From: Limnomonas spitsbergensis
Lineage: Eukaryota > Chlorophyta > Chlorophyceae > Chlamydomonadales
Length of the DNA: 64,000 nucleotides
Direction: 5' to 3'
NCBI GenBank assembly: GCA_037349105.1
Contig: JAYJMM010000060.1
Span: 124,501-188,500, forward strand
In this document: positions 1 through 64,000 of the stretch, piece after piece
How positions within the stretch are numbered: position 1 is the stretch's first letter
Layout of the letters: the number at the start of each line of letters is the position of its first letter
Position numbers and translations under genes: made by a program
The notes under the pieces: generated by a model
Databases searched by the model: none
The model's input: the letters and a program-made list of their open reading frames with translations, nothing else
What the model was told of the DNA's origin: nothing

Positions 1-65
1 TCTCGGAGCTCCTCAATCACACTTTTAGTGTACTGCAGCAGAGCGGCCTTGGTCTTGTGGTGGAT
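1..65 (-). CDS. Antiporter exon 13, truncated by window edge
   Basis: Acceptor CTTGCAG|ATCCAC. It encodes [20 protein letters not shown], the start of the hydrophilic cytoplasmic tail, and runs off the window. Confidence 0.85.
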   Translation of the reverse strand, partial: MHHKTKAALLQYTKSVIEELR

Positions 66-3000
66 CTGCAAGAGGTGTGCACAGAAGGTGTGAACACATG
101 TGTGACGCGCTCCTCGTTCACACCAGAATGGCCGTTGCTGGGTCGTTCGGGCTGCTGTTACTTTCCAGCATGCTTTACATTTGTAGCTGCTGTACAAAGT
201 ACGATGGAATACGAAGCAGTTCTCCAGTTGTGAGTAGCAGGTGCCTCTATGAGAAAAACAGTTTACAGTTCCCCACAGTATGGCGTTTGCCATTTTATGG
301 TGTGACAGAAAACATATTAAACCCTGAACCCTAGCCCCTAGAATCAGACTGCTTGCCCTTTGACTCCCGATTTGAACCCCTGCAGCTAACCCCTTGCTTC
401 TAAACCCCAAGCATGGGCCCCTGAGCCTGACCTGCTTCTTGACAGAGGATATTGTGTTGAGCTTCAGCCAGCCCATGAGAGGTGTCAGCAGCGGTCCATT
501 GATGAGCAGCGTCATGAGCACATAGCCTGCAGTGTATAGTCCCTGGGGGCGGGGGGGGTAGAGCAATGCCTTCAGATCTAACTGCCATTTGGATCCAGAT
601 CTACAGGGGTGCCGGTTGTAATCCATTGATGAGCAGCGTCATGAGCACATAGCCTGCAGTGTATAGTCCCTTGGGGCAGGGGGGGGGTAGAGCAATGCAT
701 TCAGATCCAACTGCCATTTGGATCCAGATCTACAGGGGTGTCGGTTGTAATCCGTTGATGAGCAGCATCATGAGAACATAGCCTGCAGTGTATAGTCCCT
801 TGGGGCAGGGGGGGGGGGGGGAGGTAGAGCAATGCCTTCAGATCCAACTGCCATTTGGATCCAGATCTACAGGGGTGTCGGTTGTAATCCATTGATGAGC
901 AGCGTCATAAGAACATAGCCTGCAGTGTATAGTCCCTGGGGGCAGGGGGGGGTAGAGCAATGCATTCAGATCCAACTGCCATTCAGATCCAACTGTCTAA
1001 ACAGGTCTACCAAGGTTTACCCAGTACAGCCATGTAGGGGTTCACGCACTGTATAGGGTTAAGGGTTTAGGGTTTAGGCCAACATCCCGTATCGTTTACC
1101 GCACTGTACCGCACCATTTTATAGTAGCTGTGTCACCTGTGTGAAAACACCGCACCGGCCATCTGCTGACCAATCCGGCCATCTGCTGAACGCACTGGCC
1201 ATCTGCTGAACGCACAGGCCATCTGCTGACCAATCCGGCCATCTACTGAGCGCACTGGCCATCTGCTGAACGCACTGGCCATCTGCTGAACGCACCGGCC
1301 ATCTGCTGACCAATCCGGCCTTCTGCTGAACGCACCGGCCATCTGCTGACCAATCCGGCCATCTGCTGAACGCACTGGCCATCTGCTGAACGCACCGGCC
1401 ATCTGCTGACCAATCCGGCCATCTGCTGAACGCACTGGCCATCTGCTGAACGCACTGGCCATCTGCTGAACGCACCGGCCATCTGCTGACCAATCAGGCC
1501 ATCTGCTGAACGCACCGGCCATCTGCTGACCAATCCGGCCATCTGCTGAACGCACTGGCCATCTGCTGACCAATCCGGCCATCTGCTGACCAATCCGGCC
1601 ATCTGCTGAACGCACCGGCCATCTGCTGAACGCACCGGCCATCTGCTGAACGCACCGGCCATCTGCTGAACGCACCGGCCATCTGCTGACCAATCCGGCC
1701 ATCTGCTGACCAATCCGGCCATCTGCTGACCAATCCGGCCATCTGCTGACCAATCCGGCCATCTGCTGACCAATCCGGCCATCTGCTGACCAATATGGCC
1801 ATCTGCTGACCAATCCGGCCATCTGCTGACCAATCCGGCCATCTGCTGACCAATCCGGCCATCTGCTGACCAATCCGGCCATTAGCTGACCAATCTGTCC
1901 AATCTGACCAATCCGACAATTTGCTGACCAATCTGTCCAATCAGTCCCTCCCCCTCTCCAATTGTCCATTTTCCCCAGTCTGTCCCTCCCCCCTTCCAAG
2001 ACCTCCTCCTCACCATTTCGGACGTGACTCGCACCCCGCTCTTTCCACCGCTGTGGGTATCTGAGGGAGGGCGGGCAGAGGGGTAGTGAGAGGCAAGGTC
2101 GGCCATACTCTGGTCCAGGGAGAGACTGGAGCGCAGGTGCACTTTGAGATGGCGCTCACCCTGGTGTGCTGGGACTTGGACTGACTAGGCTGGACTGGGC
2201 GGCCTGGCCTGGGGATGAAGCATTTGATAAAATTTGACCCCTGAACACAGCCGACCCGCTTGCATCATTATAGGGGTGAGGCTGAAACTTGCAGACAACA
2301 CATCCGGTCCTGCAACACATCAACCCTACACCCCAAACTCTACAACCTATACCCTACACATTATCTTTTAACTCTAAACCCTAAGCCCTACACGTTGAAT
2401 CCTGTACCACACCTTAGCTGCTAAACCGTGGTTTAGATTTCAGGATGACAGCCCTAAACCCTGAACACAACTGACCCACATGCAGTATTGTTTAGGCTGA
2501 AACCTACACATTTTTAACCCTACCTCACATTTTTTACTCTACCAAATATCTCAGCCGCCTGCCTTGTAAAGGGTTCAGGACAAGAGCCCCTGACTCTAAG
2601 TACTCTAAGTAGATTTGCCTCATACTCCACATTGTTTGGGGTTGAGGGATTCAAGAATATACTAATGATCGATTGTGGATGCCAGTTTTCAGTCAGGAGT
2701 GAATCGCTCTGGTCGATACTTTGCCCTGAGGGCAGGGCATAAAACAAATCGTGTTTTCAAACCCGAGGGCAGGCAAATCAAACCTACGGTACAACTGACC
2801 CGCTAACCCTGGTTTGGGTTTCAGGATTGTTGCCCTAAACCCCACCCACAACTGAAAGAAAAAAAGCTACGCCACGTGGGGGGCGTGAGATTTAAGGAAA
2901 CAACGCAGCCCCTGGGTTGTTGAGGACGGCGGACCCACCACTGACCTGCTTGCAGCGTCAGCATTGTCTGGGCCAAGATGAGCGAAACAGCTTTCTTTCT

Positions 3001-6000
3001 GTTAGGAAACAACGCAGCCCCTGGGTTATTGAGGACGGCGGACCCAACACTGACCTGCTTGCAGCGTCAGCATTGTCTGGGCCAAGATGAGTGAGACACT
3101 GCCCCGCAAGCCACCCTGCGCAACGGGATATGAGGGGGGGTACAGACAGAAGCGTGATAATGATGAACTGTTCATACATAACAAATAAATATATACGGTA
3201 GTCTACCGCCAGCAATAAATAAGAGCATGGAAAAATACAAAATAAAGATTTAAAGATTTAAATATTTGAAAAACTTGAAAGACTTAAAAGACGCCTGGGG
3301 GAAAGACTCCCCCCAAACAGGGGGGGACCTCTCAGGAAAGAATCGAATCTTTCCAAGACGGATGCATACCACCTGGGTGCATAGATCTAAAAGGAGTGTA
3401 CTGAGATCTAAAAGGAGTGTACTGAGATATAAAAGGAGTGTACCGAGATCTATAGCACACAGATGCGGAGAGGAGGTGCGGTGGCAATGGGGGGGACACC
3501 CTGAGCAACGGGACCAGGGGGCACAGACACAGGAACCAGCGGTGTGGAAAAGTATGGACTGGTGAAATAAGTGTGGCCGTGAAAGTGAGGCCGCCAGGGG
3601 GGAGGGGTGCGGGGGGGCTCAAGAAATCCTGAAGCACTCCCATGCCTGACTGCTCGTTTGCAATAATATGTTTTCAGCAGGATTCAGCTACTATTCAGCT
3701 ACATCACTTCACACATAATCATATAGATGAATCACTTATCACACATACTGTAGAAGTTCACACCTGCTGTTCACACATTTATCCTCCTCACCATGGTCGC
3801 AAACACAATGCCCTGCCAGGTCAGATCTATGTCAGATCCGGACAGGCGGCGGATCAGAGGTGTGAACGCGGCGATCAGCAGCCACCTCAGAAGTGTGAGC
3901 ACCACGTAGATCATGGGCAGCGTCGCACCCATTGACCAGAGGAGGGCACCATGGTCCTCATCCAAAGCAACAGACAGCCTGGCCACAAGTAACGGGGAGG
4001 CAGGGTGTGCGTTTAGCGGTGTTAATGTGATAATTATAATTGTAGGTGGCAGGGCCATCCGCAGGGACCACAATAGGGAGGCGTGGTCCTCATCATGCAC
4101 AACAGACAGCCTGAAAAAGAAGGAGGGGAGGCGGGGTGAGCGGGTTAATAAGGTTGATAATAATGTGAGGGTGGCAGGCCAAAGGTGGCAGGCCCATCTG
4201 CACAGGCCAACAGGGGGAAGAGCAGGGGTGCTCATCATGCACAAAAGACAGCCTGGAAAAGAGGGAGGGGACACGAAATAATTTAGCATAAGCTACAAAA
4301 GCGGCTGCATCAGGAGGCCAGTGCTGCTGACTCAGCACCTGCTCAAACAAGGGAGCGCTGCTGACTCGGCACCTGATCACGAAGTCCGTGCTGTTGACAC
4401 AGCACCTGATCACGAAAGTGAGTGTTGCTGACTCAGCACCCGATAAGGAAGTCAGACCTGCTGACTCAGCACCCGATGAGGAGGCAGTGCTGCTGCGTCA
4501 TCACCTGATCAGGAAGTTGGTGCTGCTGACGCCGACGTAGAAGAAGATGATTCCGTTGGTCCCGAAGCTCAGCACGTCCCAGAACTGCCCCATCCACCCC
4601 TCACGCTTGCACTTAATGGACATGTGCCAGGTCGTCGTGGCCGCACCGTACAACGCATAGCACACCACCGCGATCACACCTGCCCAGGGTCGAAAGAATG
4701 ACTTGAAGTGCATGGCAGGGAGGAGTGGGCCGCCAAACGCCTGATTGGGACCAAACCTGGGAGAGCCTACGGCTCTTGGCCAAGACAAAGCATGGCTGCA
4801 TGCCGCCAACGAGGCCTCCGACCAGCGGCCAGAGTTATGTAGCTGAGTCATGTAGCAGAGTCGCGTAAAAATGAACACAGCAGTGCCCAACAAATTTGCG
4901 CACCTGAAATGGAGAGCCATAAAACGGATCAGCAGCTCACCCGATGAGGCCAGGTAGGCAGTGTTGCTGACTCAGCACATTGTCAGGAAGTTGGTGCTGA
5001 TGACTCAGCTCACCTGATGATGCCAGGTAGGCATTTGCAACATAGTAGACAAAGTAGGCCCCGCCTATTGTGACGGTGACCTCAATGTGCGGCTTGACAC
5101 GCCTCCACTGGAGCCACCGCAACATCTGGCTGCAAGGCAAAACACAACCAGCAACATCTGGCTGCAAGGCGAAGGCATTGCAACATCTGGCTGGAAGGCG
5201 CAACACAACAAGCAACACCTGGCTGCAAGGCACAACACAACGAGCATAAGGGCAGCGGGGTAAAAACACAAGGAGCGTAAGGGCAGCGGGGTAAAACACA
5301 ACGGGCATAAGGGCAGCGGGGTAAAAACACAACGAGCGTAAGGGCAGCGGGGTAAAAACACAACGAGCGTAAGGGCAGCGGGGTAAAACACAACGAGCGT
5401 AAGGGCAGCGGGGTAAAAACACAACGAGCATAAGGGCAGCGGGGTAAAAACACAACGAGCATAAGGGCAGCGGGGTAAAAACACAACGAGCGTAAGGGCA
5501 GCGGGGTAAAAACACAACGAGCGTAAGGGCAGCGGGGTAAAAACACAACGAGAGTAAGGGCAGCGGGGTAAAACACAACGAGCATAAGGGCAGCGGGGTA
5601 AAAACACAACGAGCGTAAGGGCAGCGGGGTAAAAACACAACGAGCGTAAGGGCAGCGGGGTAAAAACACAACGAGCATAAGGGCAGCGGGGTAAAAACAC
5701 AACGAGCGTAAGGGCAGCGGGGTAAAAACACAACGAGCGTAAGGGCAGCGGGGTAAAAACACAACGAGCATAAGGGTAGCGGGGTAAAAACACAACGAGC
5801 ATAAGGGCAGCGGGGTAAAAACACAACGAGCATAAGGGTAGCGGGGTAAAAACACAACGAGCGTAAGGGCAGCGGGGTAAAAACACAACGAGCATAAGGG
5901 TAGCGGGGTAAAAACACAACGAGCATAAGGGCAGCGGGGTAAAAACACAACGAGCGTAAGGGCAGCGGGGTAAAAACACAACGAGCGAAAGGGCAGCGGG

Positions 6001-9000
6001 GTAAAAACACAACGAGCATAAGGGCAGCGGGGTAAAAACACAACGAGCATAAGGGCAGCGGGGTAAAAACACAACGAGCGTAAGGGCAGCGGGGTAAAAA
6101 CACAACGAGCATAAGGGTAGCGGGGTAAAAACACAACGAGCGTAAGGGCAGCGGGGTAAAAACACAACGAGCGTAAGGGCAGCGGGGTAAAAACACAACG
6201 AGCGTAAGGGCAGCGGGGTAAAAACACAACGAGCGTAAGGGCAGCGGGGTAAAAACACAACGAGCGTAAGGGCAGCGGGGTAAAAACACAACGAGCGTAA
6301 GGGCAGCGGGGTAAAAACACAACGAGCATAAGGGTAGCGGGGTAAAAACACAACGAGCGTAAGGGCAGCGGGGTAAAAACACAACGAGCGTAAGGGCAGC
6401 GGGGTAAAAACACAACGAGCGTAAGGGCAGCGGGGTAAAAACACAACGAGCGTAAGGGCAGCGGGGTAAAAACACAACGAGCGTAAGGGCAGCGGGGTAA
6501 AAACACAACGAGCATAAGGGCAGCGGGGTAAAAACACAACGAGCGTAACGGCAGCGGGTTAAAAACACAACGAGCGTAAGGGCAGCGGGGTAAAAACACA
6601 ACGAGCATAAGGGCAGCGGGGTAAAAACACAACGAGCATAAGGGCAGCGGGGTAAAAACACAACGAGCGTAACGGCAGCGGGTTAAAAACACAACGAGCG
6701 TAAGGGCAGCGGGGTAAAAACACAACGAGAGTAAGGGCAGCGGGGTAAAACACAACGAGCATAAGGGTAGCGGGGTAAAAACACAACGAGCGTAAGGGCA
6801 GCGGGGTAAAAACACAACGAGCGTAAGGGCAGCGGGGTAAAAACACAACGAGCGTAAGGGCAGCGGGGTAAAAACACAACGAGCGTAAGGGCAGCGGGGT
6901 AAAAACACAACGAGCGTAAGGGCAGCGGGGTAAAAACACAACGAGCATAAGGGCAGCGGGGTAAAAACACAACGAGCATAAGGGCAGCGGGTTAAAAACA
7001 CAACGAGCGTAAGGGCAGCGGGGTAAAAACACAACGAGCATAAGGGCAGCGGGGTAAAAACACAACGAGCGTAAGGGCAGCGGGGTAAAAACACAACGAG
7101 CATAAGGGCAGCGGGGTAAAAACACAACGAGCGTAAGGGCAGCGGGGTAAAAACACAACGAGCATAAGGGCAGCGGGTTAAAAACACAACGAGCGTAAGG
7201 GCAGCGGGGTAAAACACAACGAGCATAAGGGCAGCGGGGTAAAAACACAACGAGCGTAAGGGCAGCGGGGTAAAAACACAACGAGCGTAAGGGCAGCGGG
7301 GTAAAAACACAACGAGCATAAGGGCAGCGGGGCGAAAACACAACGAGCGTAAGGGCAGCGGGGTAAAAACACAACGAGCGTAAGGGCAGCGGGGTAAAAA
7401 CACAACGAGCGTAAGGGCAGCGGGGTAAAACACAACGAGCGTAAGGGCAGCGGGGTAAAACACAACGAGCATAAGGGCAGCGGGGTAAAACACAACGAGC
7501 GTAAGGGCAGCGGGGTAAAAACACAACGAGCATAAGGGCAGCGGGGTAAAAACACAACGAACGTAAGGGCAGCGGGGTAAAACACAACGAGCGTAAGGGC
7601 AGCGGGGTAAAACACAACGAGCGTAAGGGCAGCGGGGTAAAAACACAACGAGCATAAGGGCAGCGGGGTAAAACACAACGAGCGTAAGGGCAGCGGGGTA
7701 AAACACAACGAGAGTAAGGGCAGCGGGGTAAAAACACAACGAGCGTAAGGGCAGCGGGGTAAAAACACAACGAGAGTAAGGGCAGCGGGGTAAAACACAA
7801 CGAGCATAAGGGTAGCGGGGTAAAAACACAACGAGCGTAAGGGCAGCGGGGTAAAAACACAACGAGCGTAAGGGCAGCGGGGTAAAAACACAACGAGCAT
7901 AAGGGTAGCGGGGTAAAAACACAACGAGCGTAAGGGCAGCGGGGTAAAAACACAACGAGCATAAGGGCAGCGGGGTAAAAACACAACGAGCATAAGGGCA
8001 GCGGGGTAAAAACACAACGAGCGTAAGGGCAGCGGGGTAAAAACACAACGAGAGTAAGGGCAGCGGGGTAAAAACACAACGAGCATAAGGGTAGCGGGGT
8101 AAAAACACAACGAGCGTAAGGGCAGCGGGGTAAAAACACAACGAGCGTAAGGGCAGCGGGGTAAAAACACAACGAGCGTAAGGGCAGCGGGGTAAAACAC
8201 AACGAGCCTAAGGGCAGCGGGGTAAAAACACAACGAGCGTAAGGGCAGCGGGGTAAAAACACAACGAGCGTAAGGGCAGCGGGGTGAAAACACAACGAGC
8301 GTAAGGGCAGCGGGGTAAAAACACAACGAGCATAAGGGCAGCGGGGTAAAAACACAACGAGCGTAACGGCAGCGGGTTAAAAACACAACGAGCGTAAGGG
8401 CAGCGGGGTAAAAACACAACGAGCGTAAGGGCAGCGGGGTAAAAACACAACGAGCATAAGGGCAGCGGGGTAAAAACACAACGAGCGTAAGGGCAGCGGG
8501 GTAAAACACAACGAGCGTAAGGGCAGCGGGGTAAAACACAACGAGCGTAAGGGCAGCGGGGTAAAAACACAACGAGCATAAGGGCAGCGGGGCGAAAACA
8601 CAACGAGCATAAGGGTAGCGGGGTAAAACACAACGAGCGTAAGGGCAGCGGGGTAAAAACACAACGAGCGTAAGGGCAGCGGGGTAAAAACACAACGAGC
8701 ATAAGGGCAGCGGGGTAAAAACACAACGAGCATAAGGGCAGCGGGGTAAAAACACAACGAGCGTAAGGGTAGCGGGGTAAAAACACAACGAGCGTAAGGG
8801 CAGCGGGGTAAAAACACAACGAGCATAAGGGCAGCGGGGTAAAAACACAACGAGCGTAACGGCAGCGGGTTAAAAACACAACGAGCGTAAGGGCAGCGGG
8901 GTAAAAACACAACGAGCGTAAGGGCAGCGGGGTAAAAACACAACGAGCATAAGGGCAGCGGGGTAAAAACACAACGAGCGTAAGGGCAGCGGGGTAAAAA

Positions 9001-18000: not shown

Positions 18001-18200
18001 ATTATATATTATATATATATATATATATTTACCTTATATTATATGTATATATTTACCTTATATTATATATATATATTTACCTTATATTTACCTTATATAT
18101 ATATATATTTACCTTATATTTACCTTATAAACATATATTTACCTTATATTGACATTATATGTACCTTATATATATATATATATATACCTTATATTTACCT

Positions 18201-18246
<46 letters not shown>

Positions 18247-18255
18247 ATATTTACC

Positions 18256-18298
<43 letters not shown>

Positions 18299-18395
18299 TT
18301 ATATTTACCTTATATATATATATATTTACCTTATATTATATATATATATATTTACCTTATATTTACCTTATATATATATATATATACTATATATA

Positions 18396-18471
<76 letters not shown>

Positions 18472-18479
18472 TATATATA

Positions 18480-18523
<44 letters not shown>

Positions 18524-19852: not shown

Positions 19853-19863
19853 CGACGTGGAGT

Positions 19864-25970: not shown

Positions 25971-25974
25971 CACT

Positions 25975-26100
25975 TTATTTCTTGTCTTCCTCGAATTCGC
26001 TTTCCATGTACTGCCACTGCCCTCCTGCCTTCAGGAAACGGCTCCGCTCGACACGTTGGATCAGCCCGGGGTCCTTATCATCTCGTACCATAAAAGACAG
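25975..26100 (-). CDS. YchJ-like terminal exon 5
   Basis: Acceptor GCCGCAG|CTGTCT, stop TAA at 25977-25975. It encodes LSFMVRDDKD, ERSRFLKAGGQWQYM and an acidic end EFEEDKK. Confidence 0.9.
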   Translation of the reverse strand: MSFMVRDDKDPGLIQRVERSRFLKAGGQWQYMESEFEEDKK

Positions 26101-50706: not shown

Positions 50707-50890
50707 CTTGAATAATCCTTTGAGGGTGACAGTATCGACGGGCGAAGACTCCTTGAGATTCGTCGCGATGTCCGCTGTTTACTGGGTCATATAGTTTGTA
50801 TGGGAAAGAGTGTGGGGTTGAAAACGGGGTGCATCGAGGCGATTTCGTATGTGCTGACTTCAGTGGGCTTGCACGCTTCTGACTGACACT
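50707..50890. promoter_or_regulatory. Putative 5' flank/promoter of the YchJ-like gene
   Basis: Short region between Met50706 and the LINE. No TATA box or other element can be named. Assigned by position only. Confidence 0.3.
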
Positions 50891-52680: not shown

Positions 52681-52842
52681 AAACAATGATATTTGACCTA
52701 TCAAGCTTGATGGGCGGCCATCAGAGAGAATTTAGTTGCAGAAGTCACCCAAAACGACAAACAAGTCCAAAATATTTTAACTAAATGATTACGACTGTTT
52801 TGGCAAAGGTGCTCAGCAAAATACATTGGATGAAATAAACAT

Positions 52843-52902
52843 TCAAATTCCCTTGGCTCCCAACTGCTTGGCCTTCCACTCCTCCAGCCGCATCTGAGAC
52901 TC
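52843..52902 (-). CDS. GCVT-like terminal exon 10
   Basis: Acceptor CTGCAG|GAGTCT, stop TGA at 52845-52843: ESQMRLEEWKAKQLGAKGI. The 3' UTR probably extends toward 52690, facing the LINE tail. Confidence 0.85.
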   Translation of the reverse strand, partial: ESQMRLEEWKAKQLGAKGI

Positions 52903-55900
52903 CTGCAGATGGCGAACGAGAGAGGGGGGGGCAGATGTTTGTACCAGCCATGCTTTGTCAGTACCAGCCATGCTAGATGACGAATGTACCAGCCATGCAC
53001 CAATGATCAGTACACTTAACTTCATGCAGTCAGCACCACAACAAGCACATTGGTCCACGTGGTCCACGTTTGCATCCATGGGTAGAACATATATGAACAC
53101 TGGGCAGCCATGCAAGATGCAGCCATGCAAGAAGCAGCCATGCAAGATGCAGCCATGCAAGATGCAGCCATGCAAGATGCAGCCATGCATCGCTTGTCAT
53201 GTTTTGATACTTGATGATTCAGCACATGAAAACAAGGAATGAAGGTCACTACTCGATAAATCAGACCATGCAATATAATGCCAGGCAATACCATGGTCAC
53301 GGCTCGGATGTGGCTTCGGCCCAGGCTGCGCTGTTTCCTTAACTCTCTCGCCCCCTACGGGGTGTAGCTTTCTTTCTTTCTTTCTTTGCCCTGCAATAGG
53401 CCACGACCAGACCCGATGTGTCACCTAGGCGAAGGTTATATTTTTTGGCGGGGGGTATTTCTTGGCGGGGGTTCTTTTTTTCTTTTCTCTTCATTTTTTG
53501 TTTTTTTTGTTTGGTTAGGCAGAGGGGGGGCGCGTTGAGATAGTCTGAAAGGGATCAATCCACGTCTCAGGACACACACTTAGTGTTGTGAAGGGATGTC
53601 GCTAAGCATTTAAACAACCTCAAGGTTTTAGGGTTTGGGGTTGAGGGTTTAGGGTTTGGGGTTTCGGATGTATGGGTTGTGGATCTGGCCCACCTTGATC
53701 CGCTGGCGGCGTGCCTCCTCCTCCTCAGCAGCCGCATGCAGCAACCTCTCTCTGAAAGGTGGTGGGGGGAGGGGGCCAAAAGTGTGACTGAGGGTGGGGT
53801 GGCATAGAGTGTGGGAAAAGTGTGGCAGAATACATGAGGTCATCGGATGTGACTGTCAGCAGTCTCTTCCTCTCAAGACACAGAGCAGGGTGTAGATTTT
53901 GACCGGGTATACCAAGGCAGCGCGATATGGTAAGTCGGCATATCATATTCATATCGATGGAGCGTTGACTATGCTTGTGTTGTGGCATTCTCGCTTGTTG
54001 AGTATCTGGAAAGTCCACAGGCTGATACTAGGGAATTTCGAGCTCCGAAACCAAATCTCCCATGCTAACCCCATGATACGGTCTGTCAAAGATACTATAT
54101 TGAACGATATGATATGATATGATGACCCAAAAGACTATATCGTGCCACCTTGGAGTAAATGAGGTGCAGGGGGCTGATGGTGAATCGTGCTACGAGAGGG
54201 AGACCTTCAGTGAGGAGACCCAACCTGGGGACTGGGCAAATAGGGAGCCCCAAAGAAAGAGAGGAAAACAACGCCCCGCAGGAGCGTGAGGGTTAAGGAA
54301 ACAGCGCGGCATGAGCCTAGGCTGCGACCACAGGGGGGCGCCCTCATGTCTGGATCAAAAAAACTGAGGTCCCTCGCTCCCCAACCTCGCCGCATCTTGA
54401 CTGCACCTCTCTTTGGCGGCCAGCTCCGCCATGATCTCAGCACCCGGCCCCAGCACCAGGCCGCGGTCCACGGCGCCTCCGGAACCAGAGGCAGGCAGCA
54501 GCACGTCGCCCAAAAAACGCCGGCTGGCAAATGAGAGAGCGGCTACAGTGGCCGGTGAGCCAGAAACTTGGACGGACAGGCCTGTGTATTTATTTTGCAA
54601 GTTTCGCCATTTAGTGTTTGATGGCCACCATTTTTATGTTGGATGGCCGCCATTTAATGTTTGATTGCCGCCCTTCGATGTTGATTGCCACCATTTACAT
54701 TTTGATTGTCGTTGTTTCATGTTTGAGTGCTGCCATTTAACGTTTGATTACCGGCATTTAATGTTTGATTGCCACATTTCCCCGGCTTACACCTGGAACA
54801 CGGTAAATGGAATAATAATACAATATAATGTCGGTGAGTTCGGTCAGGGGATGGCGTTAGACGTCTAATGCGTTCGGTCCGGTGGCCGGCGTCGGGCGAG
54901 GAAGAGTGACGGACTTCTAAGAAATATGCCCGCAGATGTTTTGCTTACAGCTATAACAATGGTGACACTTCGCGACCGCACACACTTTCAAACTTTCCAA
55001 CATACCATGCGCGCGGACGGGAACGTCCACGATGCTCCCCTCAACGCACCAAATTTGTGCCAATTTGTTACCTTCAAACAAAAGCACAGCTTTCTGGACG
55101 AAATCGTGGCTAAACACGTCAGCAAAACGACATGATTGGGCGAAGCGGTTCAAATGTCATGGGCCCGGTCGATCGATCGTCGATTTTGAACTGGAAAGTG
55201 GGGGTCTGGTAGTCGCAACAGCCTCCTTCCTCAAACATTGTTGACGTAGGCGGCGTAAGCCACTAGGACATCTTGCGCAAGATTGCCTAGGGGCTTCCGC
55301 CGCCTACTTCAACACCCTAGCAGTACAAAAACAACCCGTTCCTTCATTACCTTGTTGCAGGCTTAGTCCCGCTCCCGAGGCCCGCCTTGTCTGCAGAAAG
55401 GCGAGGCCGAAGTGGTTGCCGGTGGGCGTGGTGGTCGAGCTGGTGACCTCCCCCACCACCTCACCATCGTCCAGAGCCACCAACGCACCGGGAGCCGCCG
55501 CCGCCTTCAGGGTTCAGATAGGGTTTATACAAGGTTTATATAGGGTTTACATAAGGTTTCTATATGGTTTATACAAGGTTTATATAAGGTTTAGATAGGG
55601 TTCATATATGGTTTATATACGGTTTATATAGGGTTCATATATGGTTTATATAGGGTTTAGATAGGAAAGGCACAGGGTTCACAGAGGGTGAGAACATAAT
55701 TTGTGCAGGACTTGCAGAATGTGCAACGAGGGGTAACGAGGGCTGTGTCCACTGTTTCGATTACGGTGCTCTCGGTAGCTGAATTATGCAGTAGGGGTAG
55801 CGAGTTTCAGTCACCGCAGTCTTAAGGCAGATTCAGCTACTTTACCAGTCAGGGACCGTTATCACTTACACAATTTCTGAACTACTGCGCAATTGCACAG

Positions 55901-58900
55901 CACTCAGGTGTTTGGGTTGCATAGCTCTAGGCTCTATATCCCAGTACGGCAATTTGGGTCCAAATCCCGTACCGTTTACCGCATGGTATCGCACCGTTTA
56001 ACGATACCGTATGGTGTTGAAACACCGTGTCGGCCATTTTCTTATCTGTCCGGCCATGTTGGCCGTACCGTACCGTACCGTATCCGTACCGTACCGTTTG
56101 ACCGCACCGTACTGTTATAATATTGGTACGAGCTGCACTGCCACTGTAATATCTTGTGCAAGACGTCCCAGTGGCATGTGCAGCTTTTCCGTACCGGGTA
56201 ACCCTTACCCTCTGGTCCTGAGCCACCAAGGCGCCCGGGGGCCACTGCCGCCTACAGGATTAATAAAGGGCATTTTATACGTCATACCACACGTGACAAG
56301 ATTAGGAAACCATTGAACAAATCAATCCTGTATGCGATGAGGCGTGGATTCAGGAAGCCACCCATTCAGCCGCACCCCTAGGTGAGCTACTGGAACCACT
56401 GGCACTACGCAGCTGCAGTAATTAGCTCAATAGCTCAACCATTGCTCGCTGATTGGACGGCATTCGCCCTTTCAACCCCCCCCCCCCCCCCCCCCGCTCC
56501 TCCACTACCTTCCACAAGTCGCCTTCAGAGTTTGCAGGCGGGGCATATTGGTGCATAAATGCAGACAGTGCATTCAACTCATGTATTGACCCAACGCACC
56601 CGCAGTTGAAGACCCCAGAGCTGTCGCGTCTGTCCATGCGCCTCCTTGTCCGCCAGTGCCTACAGGTTTCGGGTTTGGGGTATAAGGTTCAGGTTTTTGG
56701 ATTCAGGGTTTTGGGTTTAGGGTTAAGGGTTCAGGATTTCTGGGTTACGGATTGGGGTATAGGGTTCGGGAATTTTTGGTTCAGGGTTAGTTTTTATCTT
56801 GCAGGTCCAGGCAGTCCAAGACCTGATTGTGCGATGACGGCGTGATGAAATAAACTAAGAAACAAAGCTACACCCCGTTAGGGGCGTGAGAGTTAAGGAA
56901 TCATCGCAGCCTGGGCCGAGCCACATCCGCGCCGTTACCGTAATGCATACAGCCCTGCCTCAAGTACCGTCGTGTTTAGGGTTTATAGGAGGCCAGGGTT
57001 GAGAGTTTAGGGTTTAGGGTCTTCACCTGCAGGCCTAGGCAGCCGACGACCTTGTTGAGCGACACGGCGTGATACAGCCCTGCCTCCAGCACCGTCGGGG
57101 CGCCCACGGACACCTGCAGCTCGCTTCCGGCGATGGGCCGCCCAGCCAGCGTCCTGGCACACTCCCACTCCTGCTCCCCCATGAGAATGCAGCTCTGCAC
57201 CAGGAGTAGAGTGAAGGGAAATGAGACCAAGTTTTGCTGGTAAGCCTTTCTCTCTTTTCCAGCATGGCAGTGAGGATAGAGAGGCACAGTGAAGGTATTA
57301 GGGTTGAGGGTTTGTCTTGTGCAGGTGTGGCGAGAGGACTGTGCGGTCACTCCCACTCCTGCTCCAGGGGGGAGCGAAGCGAGGAAAGTAAGAGGGGGGA
57401 AACAAAGGAGGTTGTACCAGGTGGTCAATGTGTGAGAAAATGAAAGCACGGCGTATCCAAAGGGTGCCGTATTATCATAAGGTGCGGTGCGGGACGGGAC
57501 GATGAACGGGACGGGATTTGGGTAGTTGTTTTGTAATTTCCACTTTTTCAGCATGGCTGTGAGCATGGTTTAGGGTTTAGGGTTAAGGCCCCCCACCCCA
57601 CACTTGTTGTACCCTAAACCCTGAACAATGCGCTGTGTATGACAGGACGCAAGTGTGGCGAGATCGCACTGTCAGATTTAGCGCTGAATGGACTTGTTGT
57701 GAAAGTGGGCAACAGGGACACAGGATACAGAATATGGCAATACGATACAGTACGATACGGGATTTTTGGCCAATACGGGATTTTTGGCCAATACGGGATT
57801 TTTTTTGGCCCATACAGGATTTTTGGCCAATACAGGATTTATTGGCCCATACGGGATTTTTGGCCCATACGGGATTTTTGGCCCATACGGGATTTTTGGC
57901 CCATACGGGATTTTGGCCCGTACAGGACATATGCATATGTAAGGATTTCCAGTTTGTGCACCGTAGTGGACCGTATCGAAACATTACAATACGGGATTTT
58001 TGGCAAAAACGGCATCACGTGCCCCTGTTGCCCAATCTACGGTATGTTTGTAAGGGTGGCCATTTCTCATGCTGCGGCTAAAATGTGAGGCTCCTTGAAC
58101 CACATCCTGGGAAACAAATCAAATGTCCTGGGAAACAAATGTATGTGTTTTTGATTAAATGATCCATTCATTTGTTCACCGGTATTCAATTATTCATGAT
58201 ATTTCATTATTTATTACTTATTCAATTGAATTCATTTTTTCATTGATTATTCAATCATTCAATTACTGTACCTTGGAGGCCAGCACGGAGAAGAGGTCCC
58301 CGGCGACCGACTCGTCCACAATGAAAGTGAAGCCTGGGCAGGGCAGCCCACAGCCACAGGCGGCCTGCAGCAGGAGACATACATTTTAATAATATGATTT
58401 AATATCGTCATTTAAACATATGATTTACAAAGTGATTTATCAACATGATCTAACATGATTTAAGATAAATGTCAGGCCGGGGCAGGGCAAATATGATTTA
58501 ACAACGTCATTTAACACACTTATTTAAAAACAGATTATACTTAGCAACATACTTAGCAACATACTGGGAATTCAACTACTTGATTTAACAACATCCTCCT
58601 TAAACCCAAAACCCTAAAACCCAAACCCGTACCTGCAGCGGAGTGCCTCGGAAGTTGAGCAGGGCATGGCGGCCGTAGGACAGTGCCCCGCCCTCCAGCT
58701 CCGAAGGCAGTGTCTGGGACACACAAGCGTGAATAAACAAATAAGTATATAGGCAAACAAGTGCAAGGGTTGAGAAAGATGCCCATTATGGCCCACAAGC
58801 ATGGGAGCTGGTCACCATGGAGCACCGTGGTTGCAACACATAACGGAAATGTGTTACAACCACGAAAACATGGCATGTCAGTCAGATGATGTTGCACCCT

Positions 58901-61900
58901 TTAGTTCAACCTTTTCCCCAGCACCATGCCCCTTTTCCCAGTCCCTCCACTCACCCCCCTTCCACTCACCCCCCCACTCACCCCTCCCATACACTCACTA
59001 CTCACCTCCACTCATCCCCCCCTCCACTCCCCCCCCCTCCACTCCCCCCCTCCAATCACCACTCCCACCCACCCACCCCCTCTCCACTCACCCCCTTCCA
59101 CTCACCACTACCTTCCACACACCCCTCCACTCACCCCCCTTCCATTCACCCCCCCCCCTCCACTCACACATCCCCTCCCCCCACCCCCCTCCACTCACCA
59201 CTCATTTCCACGCCCCCCCCTCCACTCACGTCCCCATCAACTCACCACACCCCTCCACTCACCCCCCTCCACTCACGCCCCATCCACCCACCTCTCCTAT
59301 CCACTCACCACTCCCATCCACTCACCCCCCCTTCCACGCACCCCCCTTCTACGCATCCCCCTTCCACCCACCCCCCTTCCACTCACCCCCTTCCACCCCC
59401 CCCCCCCCCACTCACCACTCCCTTCGACACACACCCCTCTACTCACCCCCCTCCCCCCTCCACTCACCCTTCCCTTCCTCTCACCCCTGATATCTCCTCC
59501 CCTCCCTTCCCCTCCCCTCCACCCACCTCCCCTCTACTCACCCCCCCCTCCACGCACCCCTCCCTTACACTCACCCCCTTCCACTCACCCTTCCCTTCTC
59601 TTCCAATCACCCCTCCCTTCCACTCACCTCCCCTCCACTCACCCCCCCCCCCCCACTCACCTCCCATCCATTCACCTCCCCTCCACGCACCCCTCTCTTC
59701 TACTCACCCCCTTCCACTCACCCTCCCCTTCCACTTCCCCCGCCTCCACTCACATCCCCTCCACTCACCCCATTTTCACTCACCCATCTCTTCCACACAC
59801 CCATCCCTTCCGTCCACCCCCCTTCCACTCACCCATCCCCACCACCCACCCCCCTCTCCCCTCCCATCCAATCCCTCTACCCATGCACTCGCCCCTCCAC
59901 TCTACTCACCCGTCCCCGCCACTCACCCCCCCCCCCCACACACACACATCCAATCCCTCTACCCATGCACTCACCCCTCCCCTCCACTCACCCCCCCCTT
60001 CCATCCGATCCCTATACCCATGCACTCACCCCTCCACTCCACTCACCCATCCCCGCCACTCCCCTCCCCTCCCATCCCTTTACCCATGCACTCACCCCTC
60101 CACTCCACTCACCCATCCCCGCCACTCCCCTCCCCTCCCGTCCCTCTACCCATGCACTCACCCCTCCACTCCACTCACCAATCCCCGCCACTCCCCTCCC
60201 CTCCCATCCCTTTACCCATGCACTCACCCCTCCACTCCACTCACCCATCCCCGCCACTCCCCTCCCCTCCCATCCCTCTACCCATGCACTCACCCCTCCA
60301 CTCCACTCACCCATCCCCTCCCATCCCCTCCCATCCCTTTACCCATGCACTCACCCCTCCACTCCACTCACCTCTCCCCTCCCCTCCCATCCCTCTACCC
60401 ATGCACTCACCCCTCCACTCCACTCACCCATCCCCTCCCCTCCCCTCCCATCCCTTTACCCATGCACTCACCCTCCACTCCACTCACCCATCCCCGCCAC
60501 TCCCCTCCCCTCCCATCCCTCTACCCATGCACTCACCCCTCCACTCCACTCACCCATCCCTGCCACTCCTCCCCCTCCCATCCCTCTACCCATGCACTCA
60601 CCCCTCCACTCCACTCACCCATCCCCTCCCCTCCCCTCCCATCCCTATACCCATGCACTCACCCCTCCACTCCACTCACCCATCCCCTCCCCTCCCCTCC
60701 CCTCCCCTCCCAATACCCATGCACTCACCCCTCCACTCCACTCACCCATCCCCGCCACTCCCCTCTCCTCCCATCCCTATACCCATGCACTCACCCCTCC
60801 ACTCCACTCACCCATCCCCGCCACTCCCCTCCCCTCCCATCCCTCTACCCATGCACTCACCCCTCCACTCCACTCACCCCTCCCCTCCCCTCCCCTCCCT
60901 ATACCCATGCACTCACCCCTCCACTCCACTCACCCATCCCCTCCCCTCCCATCCCTCTACCCATGCACTCACCCCTCCACTCCACTCACCCCTCCCCTCC
61001 CCTCCCATCCCTTTACCCATGCACTCACCCCTCCACTCCACTCACCCATCCCCGCCACTCCCCTCCCCTCCCATCCCTCTACCCATGCACTCACCCCTCC
61101 ACTCCACTCACCCATCCCCGCCACTCCCCTCCCCTCCCATCCCTTTACCCATGCACTCACCCCTCCACTCCACTCACCCATCCCCTCCCCTCCCCTCCCC
61201 TCTCATCCCTTTACCCATGCACTCACCCCTCCACTCCACTCACCCCTCCCCTCCCCTCCCCTCCCCTCCCATCCCTCTACCCATGCACTCACCCCTCCAC
61301 TCCACTCACCCATCCCCGCCACTCCCCTCCCCTCCCATCCCTCTACCCATGCACTCACCCCTCCACTCCACTCACCCATCCCCGCCACTCCCCTCCCCTC
61401 CCATCCCTTTACCCATGCACTCACCCCTCCACTCCACTCACCCATCCCCTCCCCTCCCCTCCCCTCCCATCCCTTTACCCATGCACTCACCCCTCCACTC
61501 CACTCACCCATCCCCTCCCATCCCCTCCATAAACAGGTGCCTCCAGTCACCCCTCCACTCCAGTCACCCCTCATATGCACTCAAGCCCCCCTCCACTCAC
61601 CCCCCCCCCTTAACTCCACTCCACTCCCCCCTTAAGTCCACTCATCCCCTTCCATTCATCCCCCCCCCCCCCAACCTCCACTCACCCCTGCTATCTCCTT
61701 AATCACTGCCTCCGACTCGGGTCCCACCAGGGACAGCATCGCACACCGAGCGGACACATTGGCCGCAGACACCTTCAGGCTGTTGGCGAGCGCCCGCTCC
61801 TTGACCCAGGCTTCCACGCTGGCACCGCGATCCGGGCTGGCAATGAGCATCACGTGATTCTCACTCAAAAGAACCGTGACCAGATCTACGGCATTCCCAT

Positions 61901-64000
61901 TATCATCCAGCAGGATCTGGCAAGAGAGAGGAGAGAGAATGCGAGAAAGACATATGGTGAGCTGGCAATGAGCATCACGTGATTCTCACTCAAAAGAACC
62001 GTGACCAGATCTACGGCATTCCCATTATCATCCAGCAGGTTTCAGCAAGAGGGAGGAGTGTGGCACGGTCAGGCACGGTCACTACTCATCATGGGTGGAC
62101 ATGGAGGAGGCAGGGGGGTGTCCTGTGCCTGGGTATCAAAGGGACGGTCACTACTCATCATGGGTGGACATGGAGGAGGCAGGGGGGTGTCCTGTGCCTG
62201 GGTATCAAAGGCACGGTCACTACTCATTCATAGTGTTTCGGTATATCGTGGCATACAGCCATTTTGTTGCCTGGTGCAGCAAGCCCTGCTGCTTGCTAGG
62301 GCCGTAGGCCGGTCTAGGTTAGTATAGCGTCCCTGGATGCTACTGAGTCTAAGGCTATACAGATGTACATGCTGTACACCTATATAATGGACAGTGTATC
62401 GTATCTCGAGGATATGTTGAGGAGACACTGACAGTACTGATCGAGGCGGGGCTCTTTACGCTACGAAACTCCAATAATCCATATTCAACGTTACAGCAGA
62501 GCGCTACAGAGTGAGTGAGAGAAGGGAGAGCGTCTGTTAGAGATCAGGGTCACAGAATGCTCACTGAAGAAGCGTGACTGCTATATGAACTCTAAACGCA
62601 CGAAGGATTGGAAACCATACGCAGTTCTTACTTCTTACTTATACTCTAAATTTGATTCACCTTCCCTCGGGCATCAAACAGTGTTTTCTCTGAATGCTGC
62701 CCTCAGGGCAAAATGTCGACAAAAACTCACACCGTGATTTCTAGACTGATAACTGGCGTCGGCAATCGATAACTAGTAAATTCATGCATACTTCAACCCC
62801 AAACAACATTAATTATGTGGGAAGGCAAAACAAACTGACGGTTTATAAGGCATCGAGCTGAAAGGAGGAGGAGGAGGAGGAGGAGGAGGAAGGAGACAGT
62901 GAGGCCGGCCATCAGCATACAAATGTTCTCGTTCACTGTACTGTGGCAAGATCTACCGCCTGTGACCAGATATACAGACCGTGACCAGATAGGGTATGCG
63001 GACTGTGACCACATGTACCGCCTGTGATCAGATCTATAGGCTGTGACCAGATCTACACACAGTAACCAAATCTGCAGAGTTCCCGCTGTCCATCTCAGCC
63101 AGGCGAAGAAAGGAAGAAAGCTGCGCCCAACGTGGGGGTCAAGGGAACAGCGCAGGTGGGGGCCTTAGCCACATCCATGCCGTCACCGTCCGCTAGTCAA
63201 CCTACGGCATCGCATCCCTGGCCTAGGCTGGAAAAATTACTTCTGAGATGTTTACTTTTAAGACTATTCTTAGATGCTTCTCAGATTGGTCTTAGATACT
63301 TTTCAGGTACCTCTCAGATTCGCGTTTCAGATACATGTCAGATGCAGCTCAGATCTGTTTCAGATACTTCTCTGATACTTCTCACAGATGCTTATCATAA
63401 ACATCTCACATGCCTCCCAGATGCGTCTCAGATATTTCTCAGATATTTCTCAGATATTTCTCAGATATTTCTCAGATATTTCTCAGATGCTATTCACATA
63501 CCTCTCAGAGACCTCTCAGATATGTCTCATATATTTCTCAGATATTTATCAGATGCTTCTAACATACATATCACATACATGCTTCTCAGATGCTTCTCAT
63601 ATATTTCTCATATATTTCTCAGATGTTTTTCATATACCTCCCAGATGCGTCTCAGATACTTCTCAGATATTTATCTGACTTTTCTCGCAGATGCTTATCT
63701 GCCACCCAGCTCACCGTAGTGCATCCCTGACCCGGGACCAGGCTGGAGAAGATACCTCTGAGAAGTATGCGTTTGAGATACTTCTTAGATACTTCTCAGA
63801 TACAATTCAAACAGATATGTTTCTAAGATACTTCTCACAGTTGCTTCTCTGCCACCCCGCTCACCGTGTCGCATCCCTGCCCCGGGACCAGGCCGGAGAA
63901 GTCCTGCGAGCTGCACCTCTGCAGCAGCGGGACCCGATCTCGGCCGGCCAACCGGATCCGCGGCCAGTGAGACCGGTCCACTAGCACCGCCGCTGTGGCC
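52843..64000 (-). CDS. COG0354 / GCVT-like folate-binding-fold protein (plastid type), 10 exons, 5' end outside window
   Basis: Exons: 64000-63865, 61916-61686, 58713-58633, 58364-58272, 57194-57027, 56659-56600, 55504-55351, 54581-54407, 53751-53694, 52902-52843 (stop TGA). All GT-AG with matching phase, 404 codons. The product resembles the plant plastid COG0354 protein represented by Arabidopsis At1g60990: DRSHWPRIRLAG (8-19), GQGCDT (40-45), NAVDLVTVLL, SLVGPESEAVIKEIAG, LSYGRHALLNFRGTPLQ, WECARTLAGRPIAGSEL, LEAGLYHAVSLNK (to 228), QLWGLQL, GEVTSSTTTPTGNHFGLAFL and an acidic/basic coiled C-terminus (about 350-404). COG0354 proteins (YgfZ/IBA57) assist Fe-S enzyme maturation with folate; that role is inferred. 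The usual KGCYxGQE signature reads KVVGCLGL here. Confidence 0.92.
53105..53190. repeat. 15-bp tandem repeat (GCAGCCATGCAAGAT)
   Basis: Six units in the last intron of the GCVT-like gene. Confidence 0.95.
53295..53390 (+). mobile_element. SINE-like element with TTTC tail
   Basis: Plus-strand copy: GCTCGGATGTGGCTTCGGCC, AGGCTGCGCTGTTTCC, TTAACTCTC, GGGGTGTAGC and (TTTC)n. The best view of the 3' tail in this family. Confidence 0.65.
53694..53751 (-). CDS. GCVT-like exon 9
   Basis: Acceptor TTTCAG|AGAGAG, donor ATCAAG|GTGGGC: ERLLHAAAEEEEARRQRIK, a charged coiled coil. Confidence 0.85.
54255..54345 (-). mobile_element. SINE-like element, diverged copy
   Basis: GCGTGAGGGTTAAGGAAACA then GCGCGGCATGAGCCTAGGC, like the other copies. 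Confidence 0.5.
54407..54581 (-). CDS. GCVT-like exon 8
   Basis: Acceptor TACACAG|GCCTGT, donor GAGAG|GTGCAG. LSVQVSGSPATVAALSFASR ends the barrel; a Gly/Ser linker and IMAELAAKER start a helix. A TGA would follow at 54357 if unspliced, but phase to exon 9 is exact. Confidence 0.87.
54600..54790. repeat. 24-bp tandem repeat (CCATTTAATGTTTGATTG)
   Basis: About eight diverged units with GCCGCCATTTAATGTTTGAT. Confidence 0.88.
54795..55350. other. Intron 7, no exon recognised
   Basis: Unique-looking sequence. A short plus-strand frame (54926-55135) has no recognisable domain. A short inverted pair (GTAGGCGGCGTAAGC / GCTTCCGCCGCCTAC) lies at about 55246-55304. Confidence 0.45.
55351..55504 (-). 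CDS. GCVT-like exon 7
   Basis: Acceptor CTGAAG|GCGGCG, donor CAACAAG|GTAATG. PGALVALDDGEVVGEVTSST then TTPTGNHFGLAFL is the C-terminal barrel (G-x-V-T-S) of GCVT proteins. Confidence 0.92.
55515..55660. repeat. GGGTTTATATA telomere-like array
   Basis: About 12 units of AGGGTTTATATAAGGTTTA next to the exon 7 acceptor. Confidence 0.88.
55930..56190 (+). repeat. GTACCG-rich dispersed element, fullest copy
   Basis: CCGTACCGTTTACCGCATGG, AACACCGTGTCGGCCATTTT, CTTATCTGTCCGGCC and CCGTACCGTACCGTACCG. Related to 26205-26350 and 1060-1150. Confidence 0.7.
56600..56659 (-). CDS. GCVT-like exon 6
   Basis: Acceptor CTGTAG|GCACTG, donor CTGCGG|GTGCGT, 20 codons: ALADKEAHGQTRQLWGLQLR. The spacing from LNK to QLWG equals that in the plant homologue as I recall it, supporting the exon 5/6 junction. 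Confidence 0.82.
56810..56980 (-). repeat. Copy of the GCVT exon 5 end split by a SINE-like element
   Basis: 56812-56850 (TGCAGGTCCAGGCAGTCC then GACGGCGTGAT) and 56948-56975 (CATACAGCCCTGCC then AGTACCGTCG) are two adjoining halves of an exon 5 copy. The SINE-like unit 56850-56940 lies between them. Confidence 0.8.
57027..57194 (-). CDS. GCVT-like exon 5 (signature region)
   Basis: Acceptor GTGCAG|AGCTGC, donor CTGCAG|GTGAAG, 56 codons. It contains LAGRPIAGSEL, LEAGLYHAVSLNK and KVVGCLGLQ where KGCYxGQE is expected. Confidence 0.9.
57235..57370 (-). repeat. Copy of the GCVT exon 5 acceptor region
   Basis: CACTCCCACTCCTGCTCC at 57345-57362 repeats the exon 5 start at 57161-57178. Confidence 0.65.
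57735..57995. repeat. 18-20 bp tandem repeat (GGCCCATACGGGATTTTT)
   Basis: About ten units with CAATACGGGATTTTTGG and CATACAGG variants. Confidence 0.94.
58272..58364 (-). CDS. GCVT-like exon 4
   Basis: Acceptor CTGCAG|GCCGCC, donor TCCAAG|GTACAG, 31 codons: AACGCGLPCPGFTFIVDESV then AGDLFSVLASK. Cys-rich start. Confidence 0.9.
58380..58610. other. Intron 3, AT-rich, short ATGATTTAAC repeats
   Basis: Degenerate ATATGATTTAAYAACGTCAT units; no exon. Confidence 0.5.
58633..58713 (-). CDS. GCVT-like exon 3
   Basis: Acceptor TCCCAG|ACACTG, donor CTGCAG|GTACGG, 27 codons: TLPSELEGGALSYGRHALLN then FRGTPLQ. Confidence 0.9.
58930..61685. repeat. 2.7 kb pyrimidine array of GTGAGT-like donor repeats in GCVT intron 2
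   Basis: On the minus strand the units read GGGGTGAGTGGAG, the same as the true exon 2 donor context GGG|GTGAGTGGAGG at 61686. 59990-61540 is organised in about 21 longer units of 60-80 bp with CCATGCACTCACCCCTCCAC, CATCCCCGCCACTCCCC and CCTCCCATCCCTCTAC. Long plus-strand frames (up to 938 codons, Pro/Ser/His/Thr) are artefacts. Confidence 0.95.
61686..61916 (-). CDS. GCVT-like exon 2
   Basis: Acceptor TGCCAG|ATCCTG, donor GCAGGG|GTGAGT, 77 codons. DDNGNAVDLVTVLL, MLIASPDRG, VKERALANSLKVSAANVS and LSLVGPESEAVIKEIAG give the domain core. Confidence 0.93.
61961..62040 (-). repeat. Exact copy of the GCVT exon 2 5' part
   Basis: About 79 bp identical to 61836-61914, offset 125 bp, but without a usable AG at its 5' side. 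Confidence 0.95.
62078..62225. repeat. 69-bp tandem duplication
   Basis: Two and a fraction units with ACTACTCATCATGGGTGGAC and GTGTCCTGTGCCTGGGTATC. Confidence 0.95.
62300..62640. other. Intron 1, nothing recognised
   Basis: No exon, array or RNA gene seen. Confidence 0.4.
62645..62845 (-). mobile_element. MITE-like element, copy 4 (inverted)
   Basis: Minus strand: GTTTTGCCTTCCCACA, TTTGGGGTTGAAG, TTTTGCCCTGAGGGCAGCAT, GCCCGAGGGAAGGTGAATC; same layout as copy 2. Confidence 0.72.
62950..63100 (-). repeat. Decayed GCVT exon 2 copy and 18-bp tandem repeat
   Basis: About six units of CCTGTGACCAGATCTA. The last unit extends as GNSADLVTV-like coding, matching GNAVDLVTV of the true exon. Confidence 0.75.
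63103..63240 (-). repeat. SINE-like element adjoining a decayed copy of the GCVT exon 1 end
   Basis: GAAAGCTGCGCCCAACGTGG then AGGGAACAGCGCAG, ACATCCATGCCGTCACC, followed by CGGCATCGCATCCCTGGCC (true exon: GTGTCGCATCCCTGCCCC). Confidence 0.7.
63240..63700. repeat. TTCTCAGATAT 11-12 bp array
   Basis: About 38 diverged units of TTCTCAGATA(TT/CT), plus strand; a further run is at 63750-63850. Confidence 0.93.
63700..63770 (-). repeat. Copy of the GCVT exon 1 donor region
   Basis: CACCCAGCTCACCGTAGTGC then ATCCCTGACCCGGGACCAGG copies 63853-63893 with the donor kept. Confidence 0.85.
63865..64000 (-). CDS. GCVT-like exon (first visible), open at window edge
   Basis: 45 codons plus one leading base, donor GACACG|GTGAGC. 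It encodes DRSHWPRIRLAGRDRVPLLQ and then SSQDFSGLVPGQGCDT, the N-terminal folate-fold strand and helix of the family. Confidence 0.92.

Follow-up and report, generated by a model that had tools for sequence, protein, structure and literature searches.

The window analysed here, a 64-kb stretch of the green alga Limnomonas spitsbergensis (G000:C60:124501-188500; the genome comprises 260,226,709 bases in 124 contigs), carries three modelled genes, all on the minus strand: a Na+/H+ exchanger (hereafter the antiporter), a YchJ-like gene and a GCVT-domain gene (Table 1). Their introns contain copies of the exon ends which adjoin them, and the frequency and origin of these copies are the subject of this study. 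The three models comprise 25 exons, giving 22 introns (268 to 9,483 bp) and 44 junctions, and their joined reading frames are open. The Pfam names rest on preliminary protein drafts (with antiporter exon 2 in the wrong frame, and GCVT exons 1-5) and not on the final models. The closest named relative of the YchJ protein is from Chlamydomonas eustigma (61%). Local direct repeats detected with BLAST cover 68% of the intron bases of the window, for which Tandem Repeats Finder (TRF) returned 115 rows.

Copies of exon ends in the adjoining introns

The 60 nucleotides (nt) at the exon end of each junction were used as a query against the adjoining intron, with dinucleotide shuffles and other introns as controls. 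In a first pass, 21 of the 44 window junctions scored above 100 dinucleotide shuffles (p ≤ 0.02) and 20 above other introns, and the shuffle maximum was reached on the reverse strand at 2. A stricter repeat left 17 junctions exceeding both controls at p ≤ 0.01, located on 15 of the 25 exons, compared with one junction on the reverse strand (shuffle control only). An earlier reading based on sequence only had described decayed copies at most exon boundaries; the copies are indeed present, and on most exons, but not at most boundaries. Of the 15 boundaries it named, 13 are among the 17 that pass, when its antiporter exon 12 is equated with E11 here and the remaining exon numbers are taken as equal. 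The other two are the antiporter exon 7 acceptor, where no significant copy was found (p = 0.10 against shuffles, 0.93 against other introns) despite adjacent TRF repeats of ~32 bp at 5119-5246, and the YchJ exon 2 donor, which passes against shuffles (p = 0.01) but fails the other-intron control (p = 0.15). Four passing junctions were absent from its list, namely the acceptors of GCVT E4, E5 and E6 and the donor of antiporter E3.

The frequency of such copies outside the window was estimated from exons coding for class I aminoacyl-tRNA synthetases, Na+/H+ exchangers, HSP70 and Cpn60/TCP1, located through Pfam searches; the sequence retrieved around them amounts to ~269 kb, with 26 gene loci and 133 exons. 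The matches used were 28 of 30 for PF00133 (two on contig C113 with internal stops were excluded, and a few others with a stop were kept), all 11 for PF00999, and those within the fetched loci for HSP70 (37/88) and Cpn60 (57/72). Splice sites were scored with a matrix derived from the 44 junctions of the window. Out of 266 possible exon ends, 191 scored at least 4, which left 182 once a flank of 150 bp or more was also required. The sample includes duplicated gene pairs, so its junctions are not fully independent. With raw match ends, a first pass gave 16 of 78 above shuffles and 16 above other loci, 14 of them above both (reverse strand 2/78); with refined junctions, 22 of 182 beat both controls, as against one on the reverse strand. 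Exon-end copying is genome-wide, as had been claimed, and the window is unusually rich in it (17/44 vs 22/182, Fisher p = 0.0002), which is expected since the window was picked for this pattern. The sequence-only reading had named matches no commoner than in shuffled controls as the outcome that would speak against it, and this is not the case in either set.

The accepted copies from window and sample number 39, of which 21 are acceptor and 18 donor copies. Their identity ranges from 70% to 100%, and this wide range suggests duplication events of many ages. Alternatively, the copies could be put down to chance, to low complexity or to errors of assembly, given that the introns are rich in low-complexity arrays and some of the short matches are weak (GCVT E4 and E5). 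The shuffle, other-locus and reverse-strand controls are nevertheless beaten, and 26 of the 39 copies are less than 88% identical; such older, diverged copies cannot be assembly errors, and we regard an explanation of this kind as extremely improbable.

An extended BLAST alignment was obtained for 36 of the copies and none for the remaining three, and 23 of the 36 cover at least 5 bp on each side of the splice site. The distance between junction and copy has a median of 152 bp and reaches 2342 bp, and is divisible by three in 11 of 36 cases, and 28 of the 39 copies lie within 200 bp of their junction. TRF arrays are found at antiporter E4, E8, E10 and E11, with units of 25-129 bp. The splice dinucleotide is retained in 12 of 18 acceptor copies (AG) and 5 of 18 donor copies (GT), by a simple-offset mapping in which indels cause misses. 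Identity is higher in the exon part of the copies than in their intron part (median 91% vs 80%, exon higher in 17 of 20, p = 0.0004, with an upward bias from searching with exon queries), consistent with conservation of the parent exon. In 12 of the 36 alignments the intron side shows little or no similarity, as could be expected if the copies were derived from RNA, by reverse splicing or retro-copying of exon fragments, and not from duplicated genomic DNA. The alignments which run across the splice site into the intron are grounds for rejecting such an origin, as recent copies also carry intron sequence past it (17 bp for GCVT E2, 51 bp for antiporter E10). Moreover, the accepted copies come from a coding-strand search and next to none turn up on the reverse strand, most lie close to their junction, and several are TRF arrays. 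An RNA origin is accordingly considered very unlikely.

Junctions compared with intron interiors and exons

The same 60-mer test was applied to intron interiors, of which 24 of 108 were positive in the sample (reverse strand 8/108) and 19 of 40 in the window (reverse strand 1/40), and to exon middles, which gave 1 of 40 (reverse strand 1/40) and 0 of 4, respectively. In the sample, the interior rate is higher than that of the junctions (Fisher p = 0.03). Repeat density was also determined, as the share of points across which a local direct repeat extends (BLAST), with per-intron means for sample introns. It is 3.7% in sample exon interiors (40 of 1086 points) and 10.5% at junctions (20/191), and within introns it increases with distance from the exon, from 9.3% at 0-50 bp to 11.8% (50-100), 13.2% (100-200), 18.2% (200-400), 27.5% (400-1000) and 30.7% beyond 1 kb, the deepest bins being supplied by long introns alone, whose length is due in part to arrays. 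Restricting the count to repeats with 90% identity or more gives 0.6% in exon interiors, 4.7% at junctions, and 2.7%, 3.2%, 4.1%, 6.4%, 11.4% and 20.0% in the same intron bins outward. In the window, junctions have 10/44, random intron points 66%, non-array intron points 31% and exon interiors 6.8% (at 90% identity or above, 9.1% for junctions, 47% for random and 7.9% for non-array intron points). Among introns of 600 bp or longer, junctions tend if anything to fall below the interior, with 16% vs 24% in 40 sample introns (p = 0.06) and 24% vs 49% in 17 window introns (p = 0.11). Repeat density at junctions is intermediate between exon and deep intron, with no peak.

These results bear on the proposal, made in the sequence-only reading, that duplication centres on splice sites. 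An active process of this kind could involve, for instance, transcription- or splicing-coupled breaks at exon-intron boundaries, with introns growing outward from them. The exon edge is reached within 3 nt by 34 of the 39 copies, but such anchoring is equally expected from any duplication spanning the edge. Arrays touching a junction are often derived from it, as described below, and recent repeats are slightly more frequent at sample junctions than in the nearest 50 bp of intron (4.7% vs 2.7%, standard error 1.0%), a difference that lies beyond the resolution of this sample. In the accessible part of a survey of Chlamydomonas reinhardtii and Volvox carteri, intronic tandem repeats are reported to be concentrated near intron-exon junctions (PMC3887541). 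Against this stand the 60-mer test and the repeat density, in which junctions do not exceed the intron interior in either window or sample, and the distant arrays, which are without junction ancestry. Centring on splice sites was rejected on these grounds, and we consider it improbable.

Arrays, duplicated genes and intron length

The units of the tandem arrays were ranked against all 44 window junctions. For array-junction pairs at most 60 bp apart, the array's own junction is the top match in 8 of 17, while for pairs more than 60 bp apart this holds for 2 of 73, with ~1.7 expected. The ten pairs ranking first include the 2.7 kb array of the GCVT E2 donor and the 0.8 kb array of the YchJ E3 donor; the long 31, 40, 58, 51 and 60 bp arrays are not among them. 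The 31 bp array at 5234-14502 (9.3 kb, ~300 copies) occupies most of a 9.5 kb intron and has no significant likeness to the adjoining acceptor repeats (p = 0.14). The sequence-only reading had held that several large arrays begin as junction copies; a junction origin of large arrays in general was rejected. By eye, blocks of the 31 bp array seem to recur in a higher-order pattern.

Table 1 Genes, exon-end copies and arrays in the window. Exons are numbered E1, E2 etc. within each gene.
Feature	Position	Strand	Basis and remarks
GCVT-domain (aminomethyltransferase folate-binding) gene	52843..64000	-	9 exons, 5' end outside window; joined frame; PF01571 E=2.3e-20 (draft, exons 1-5)
GCVT E1 exon-end copy (donor side)	63715..63762	-	41/48, exon-end alignment
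GCVT E2 exon-start copy (acceptor side)	61982..62039	-	58/58 identical, recent
Degenerate 2.7 kb array, unit closest to GCVT E2 donor	58942..61668	-	score 29.0, next junction 24.5 (modest margin)
GCVT E4 exon-start copy, weak	58465..58489	-	20/25, exon-end alignment
GCVT E5 exon-start copy, weak	57330..57365	-	28/36, exon-end alignment
GCVT E5 exon-end copy (donor side)	56800..56846	-	37/47, exon-end alignment
GCVT E6 exon-start copy (acceptor side)	56203..56251	-	39/49, exon-end alignment
YchJ-like gene	25975..50706	-	5 exons; frame from ATG to stop; PF17775 E=4.2e-19, also PF02810 (draft protein)
YchJ E2 exon-start copy (acceptor side)	44427..44471	-	44/45 identical, exon-end alignment
34 bp array, unit closest to YchJ E3 donor (0.8 kb)	36520..37326	-	score 23.0, next junction 16.5
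YchJ E3 exon-end copy (donor side)	36366..36423	-	49/58, exon-end alignment
YchJ E4 exon-end copy (donor side)	33924..33952	-	27/29, exon-end alignment
Na+/H+ exchanger gene	432..19852	-	11 exons modelled, runs past base 1; joined frame; PF00999 E=5.4e-18 (draft)
Antiporter E3 exon-end copy (donor side)	17331..17383	-	38/53, exon-end alignment
Antiporter E4 exon-start copy (acceptor side)	17107..17127	-	21/21; inside array 16952-17132 (TRF)
Antiporter E4 donor-copy array, 25 bp and 113 bp units	16514..16887	-	best copy 56/60; own junction ranks first of 44
Array with antiporter E5 acceptor copies	15674..15981	-	best copy 38/44; own junction ranks first of 44
Antiporter E8 donor-copy array, 33/67 bp units	4309..4530	-	TRF, exon-end alignment, array-junction ranking
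Antiporter E9 exon-start copy (acceptor side)	4066..4110	-	35/45, exon-end alignment
Tandem duplication spanning antiporter E10 donor, 109 bp x 1.9	2895..3098	-	exon part 42/44; TRF 95% matches; own junction first of 44
Array spanning antiporter E11 acceptor, 129 bp x 3.8	495..995	-	TRF, exon-end alignment, array-junction ranking

Four pairs of related genes (on contigs C119/C36, C21/C124, C39/C99 and C60/C37) have exons ~79-85% identical (exon-block averages 84-85%) and introns which are largely unalignable, with BLAST matches nearly confined to exon-sized blocks. This suggests an old genome duplication or the duplication of large segments. In the three pairs compared, the exon blocks are collinear. 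The antiporter gene on C37, which is related to that of the window, has an acceptor together with ~62 nt of exon in five tandem copies at a spacing of 111 bp (matched stretches 79-84% identical, the last copy without its intron part, the acceptor placed by eye), where the window has it in one place. Conversely, the E11 acceptor, which lies in a 3.8-unit array in the window, has one full and one partial match on C37. Accepted copies per junctions tested were 1/16 vs 0/15, 0/11 vs 0/6 and 4/10 vs 1/10 within pairs. Since copy numbers differ between paired genes, many of the duplications appear to be younger than the split of the pairs, the decay of older shared copies being an alternative.

The fraction of local repeats rises with intron length, from 4% below 200 bp (n = 10) to 45% above 2 kb (n = 12), with a rho of 0.61 over 106 sample introns of median length 471 bp. 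Growth by duplication has good support in long introns and lacks proof in ordinary ones. The DNA-level part of the earlier claim, that local duplication adds to introns, is supported, and its centring on splice sites is not; a leading role for it in setting the length of ordinary introns is conjectural.

Some further features of the window may be mentioned. The segment 157-308, within an intron, has 31 matches at other contigs or places, 71-86% identical, and is probably an old interspersed repeat. On the minus strand between the antiporter and YchJ genes, at 21378-22280, there are broken reverse-transcriptase-like frames, two of eight giving weak RVT_1 matches under the curated cut-off.

Local duplication and its relation to known systems

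We consider it likely that local tandem duplication is frequent throughout the introns of this genome, and that the junction copies are the tolerated, exon-bearing subset of its products, which decay or expand into minisatellites. According to this model, duplication would act all along introns, the spacing of the junction copies having a median of ~150 bp. A duplication that takes in a splice junction would leave the mRNA unchanged as long as the outermost splice site stayed in use, as the reading frames intact with outer sites suggest; the event would then be tolerated and the intron would become longer by one unit. Duplications within exons would mostly be purged by selection, which may account for the depletion of repeats in exons, and the copies would later decay or expand into minisatellites. 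Exon-bearing copies would be conspicuous through having a parent exon that is held constant, whereas intron-intron pairs would drift on both sides; junction copies are recognisable because the parent exon is conserved. The duplications may originate in break repair or replication slippage, followed by unequal exchange. Telomere-like heptamers (CCCTAAA/TTTAGGG) are in excess, with 85 in the window vs 15 in shuffles and 93 vs 26 in the 269-kb sample, the window excess coming partly from arrays; they are possibly scars of break repair.

Several observations weigh against this explanation. Twelve of the extended alignments hold little beyond exon sequence, one (antiporter E9) lacks exon-side coverage, and none of the 36 is an exact head-to-tail copy by a |gap| ≤ 10 test on BLAST extents, though TRF lists head-to-tail arrays. 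Since 8 of the 108 sample interior queries match the reverse strand, tandem duplication does not account for the whole interior rate, and net of the reverse strand the junction (~11.5%) and interior (~15%) rates in the sample are close. Taken by itself, the 60-mer test does not separate junctions significantly from exon middles (p = 0.087). Lastly, in 36 matched intron pairs, the differences in length track non-repeat length (rho 0.82) more closely than detectable repeats (rho 0.36, p = 0.03). A wider version of the proposal is that intron length in this green-algal lineage goes back chiefly, over the long term, to local tandem duplication, with junction-spanning events as a tolerated subset, and that its long introns are explained in this way. 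The outer splice sites would stay in place like fixed posts, and the duplicated junctions would be displaced inward and decay; we put this forward tentatively, as a possibility that is rather doubtful at present.

The sequence-only reading had held the pattern to be undescribed, but the accessible parts of the literature, to which the following comparisons are confined, contain precedents in the Chlamydomonas and Volvox survey and in the lancelet "mirages", in which exon-intron boundaries, 5' as well as 3', are duplicated in tandem (PMC3087553, PMC3902484). Mirages are reported from Adh3, globin, troponin C and PGBD5 (PMC3087553; PGBD5, Adh and troponin C cases in PMC3902484). The copies found here resemble them in spanning the exon-intron boundary and in affecting both types of boundary. 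Mirage units of ~10-160 bp are in tandem; here the spacing has a median of 152 bp and reaches 2342 bp, some copies belong to TRF arrays with units of 25-129 bp, and none of the extended alignments is precisely head-to-tail on BLAST extents. Many mirage copies keep the splice dinucleotide; here most acceptor and fewer donor copies appear to, by a mapping that misses sites shifted by indels. That regular splicing is unaffected is backed by RNA for the lancelet genes, according to those papers, and may hold here, where the frames are intact with the outer sites. Mirages show allelic instability of copy number, whereas the difference of five copies vs one seen here is between related genes and not alleles. 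Finally, the lancelet cases are described gene by gene; the present one is from a green alga, and its frequency was measured against intron-interior and exon controls.

The survey of Chlamydomonas and Volvox (PMC3887541) likewise concerns green algae, in which repeat density is highest in introns, as it is here. It differs in reporting an enrichment toward intron ends, while the intron density found here, by a different repeat measure, is lowest near exons; exon-bearing copies such as those seen here are not described in the part of it available to us. Models of intron gain by tandem duplication, i.e. the duplication of proto-splice sites (PMC2891723, PMC4974935), share the local tandem duplication around AG/GT sites. 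They place a new intron inside an exon, whereas here existing introns appear to lengthen, with exon blocks collinear in the three gene pairs. As far as these sources extend, what is new is a green-algal case and a quantified genome-wide frequency with an intron-interior control, without a claim to the first report in algae.

Mirage-like structures thus occur outside lancelets. The results are also a warning that exon-anchored searches make duplication events look concentrated at junctions. The exon-bearing copies serve as tracers of a duplication process which intron-only copies, by decaying on both sides, would conceal.

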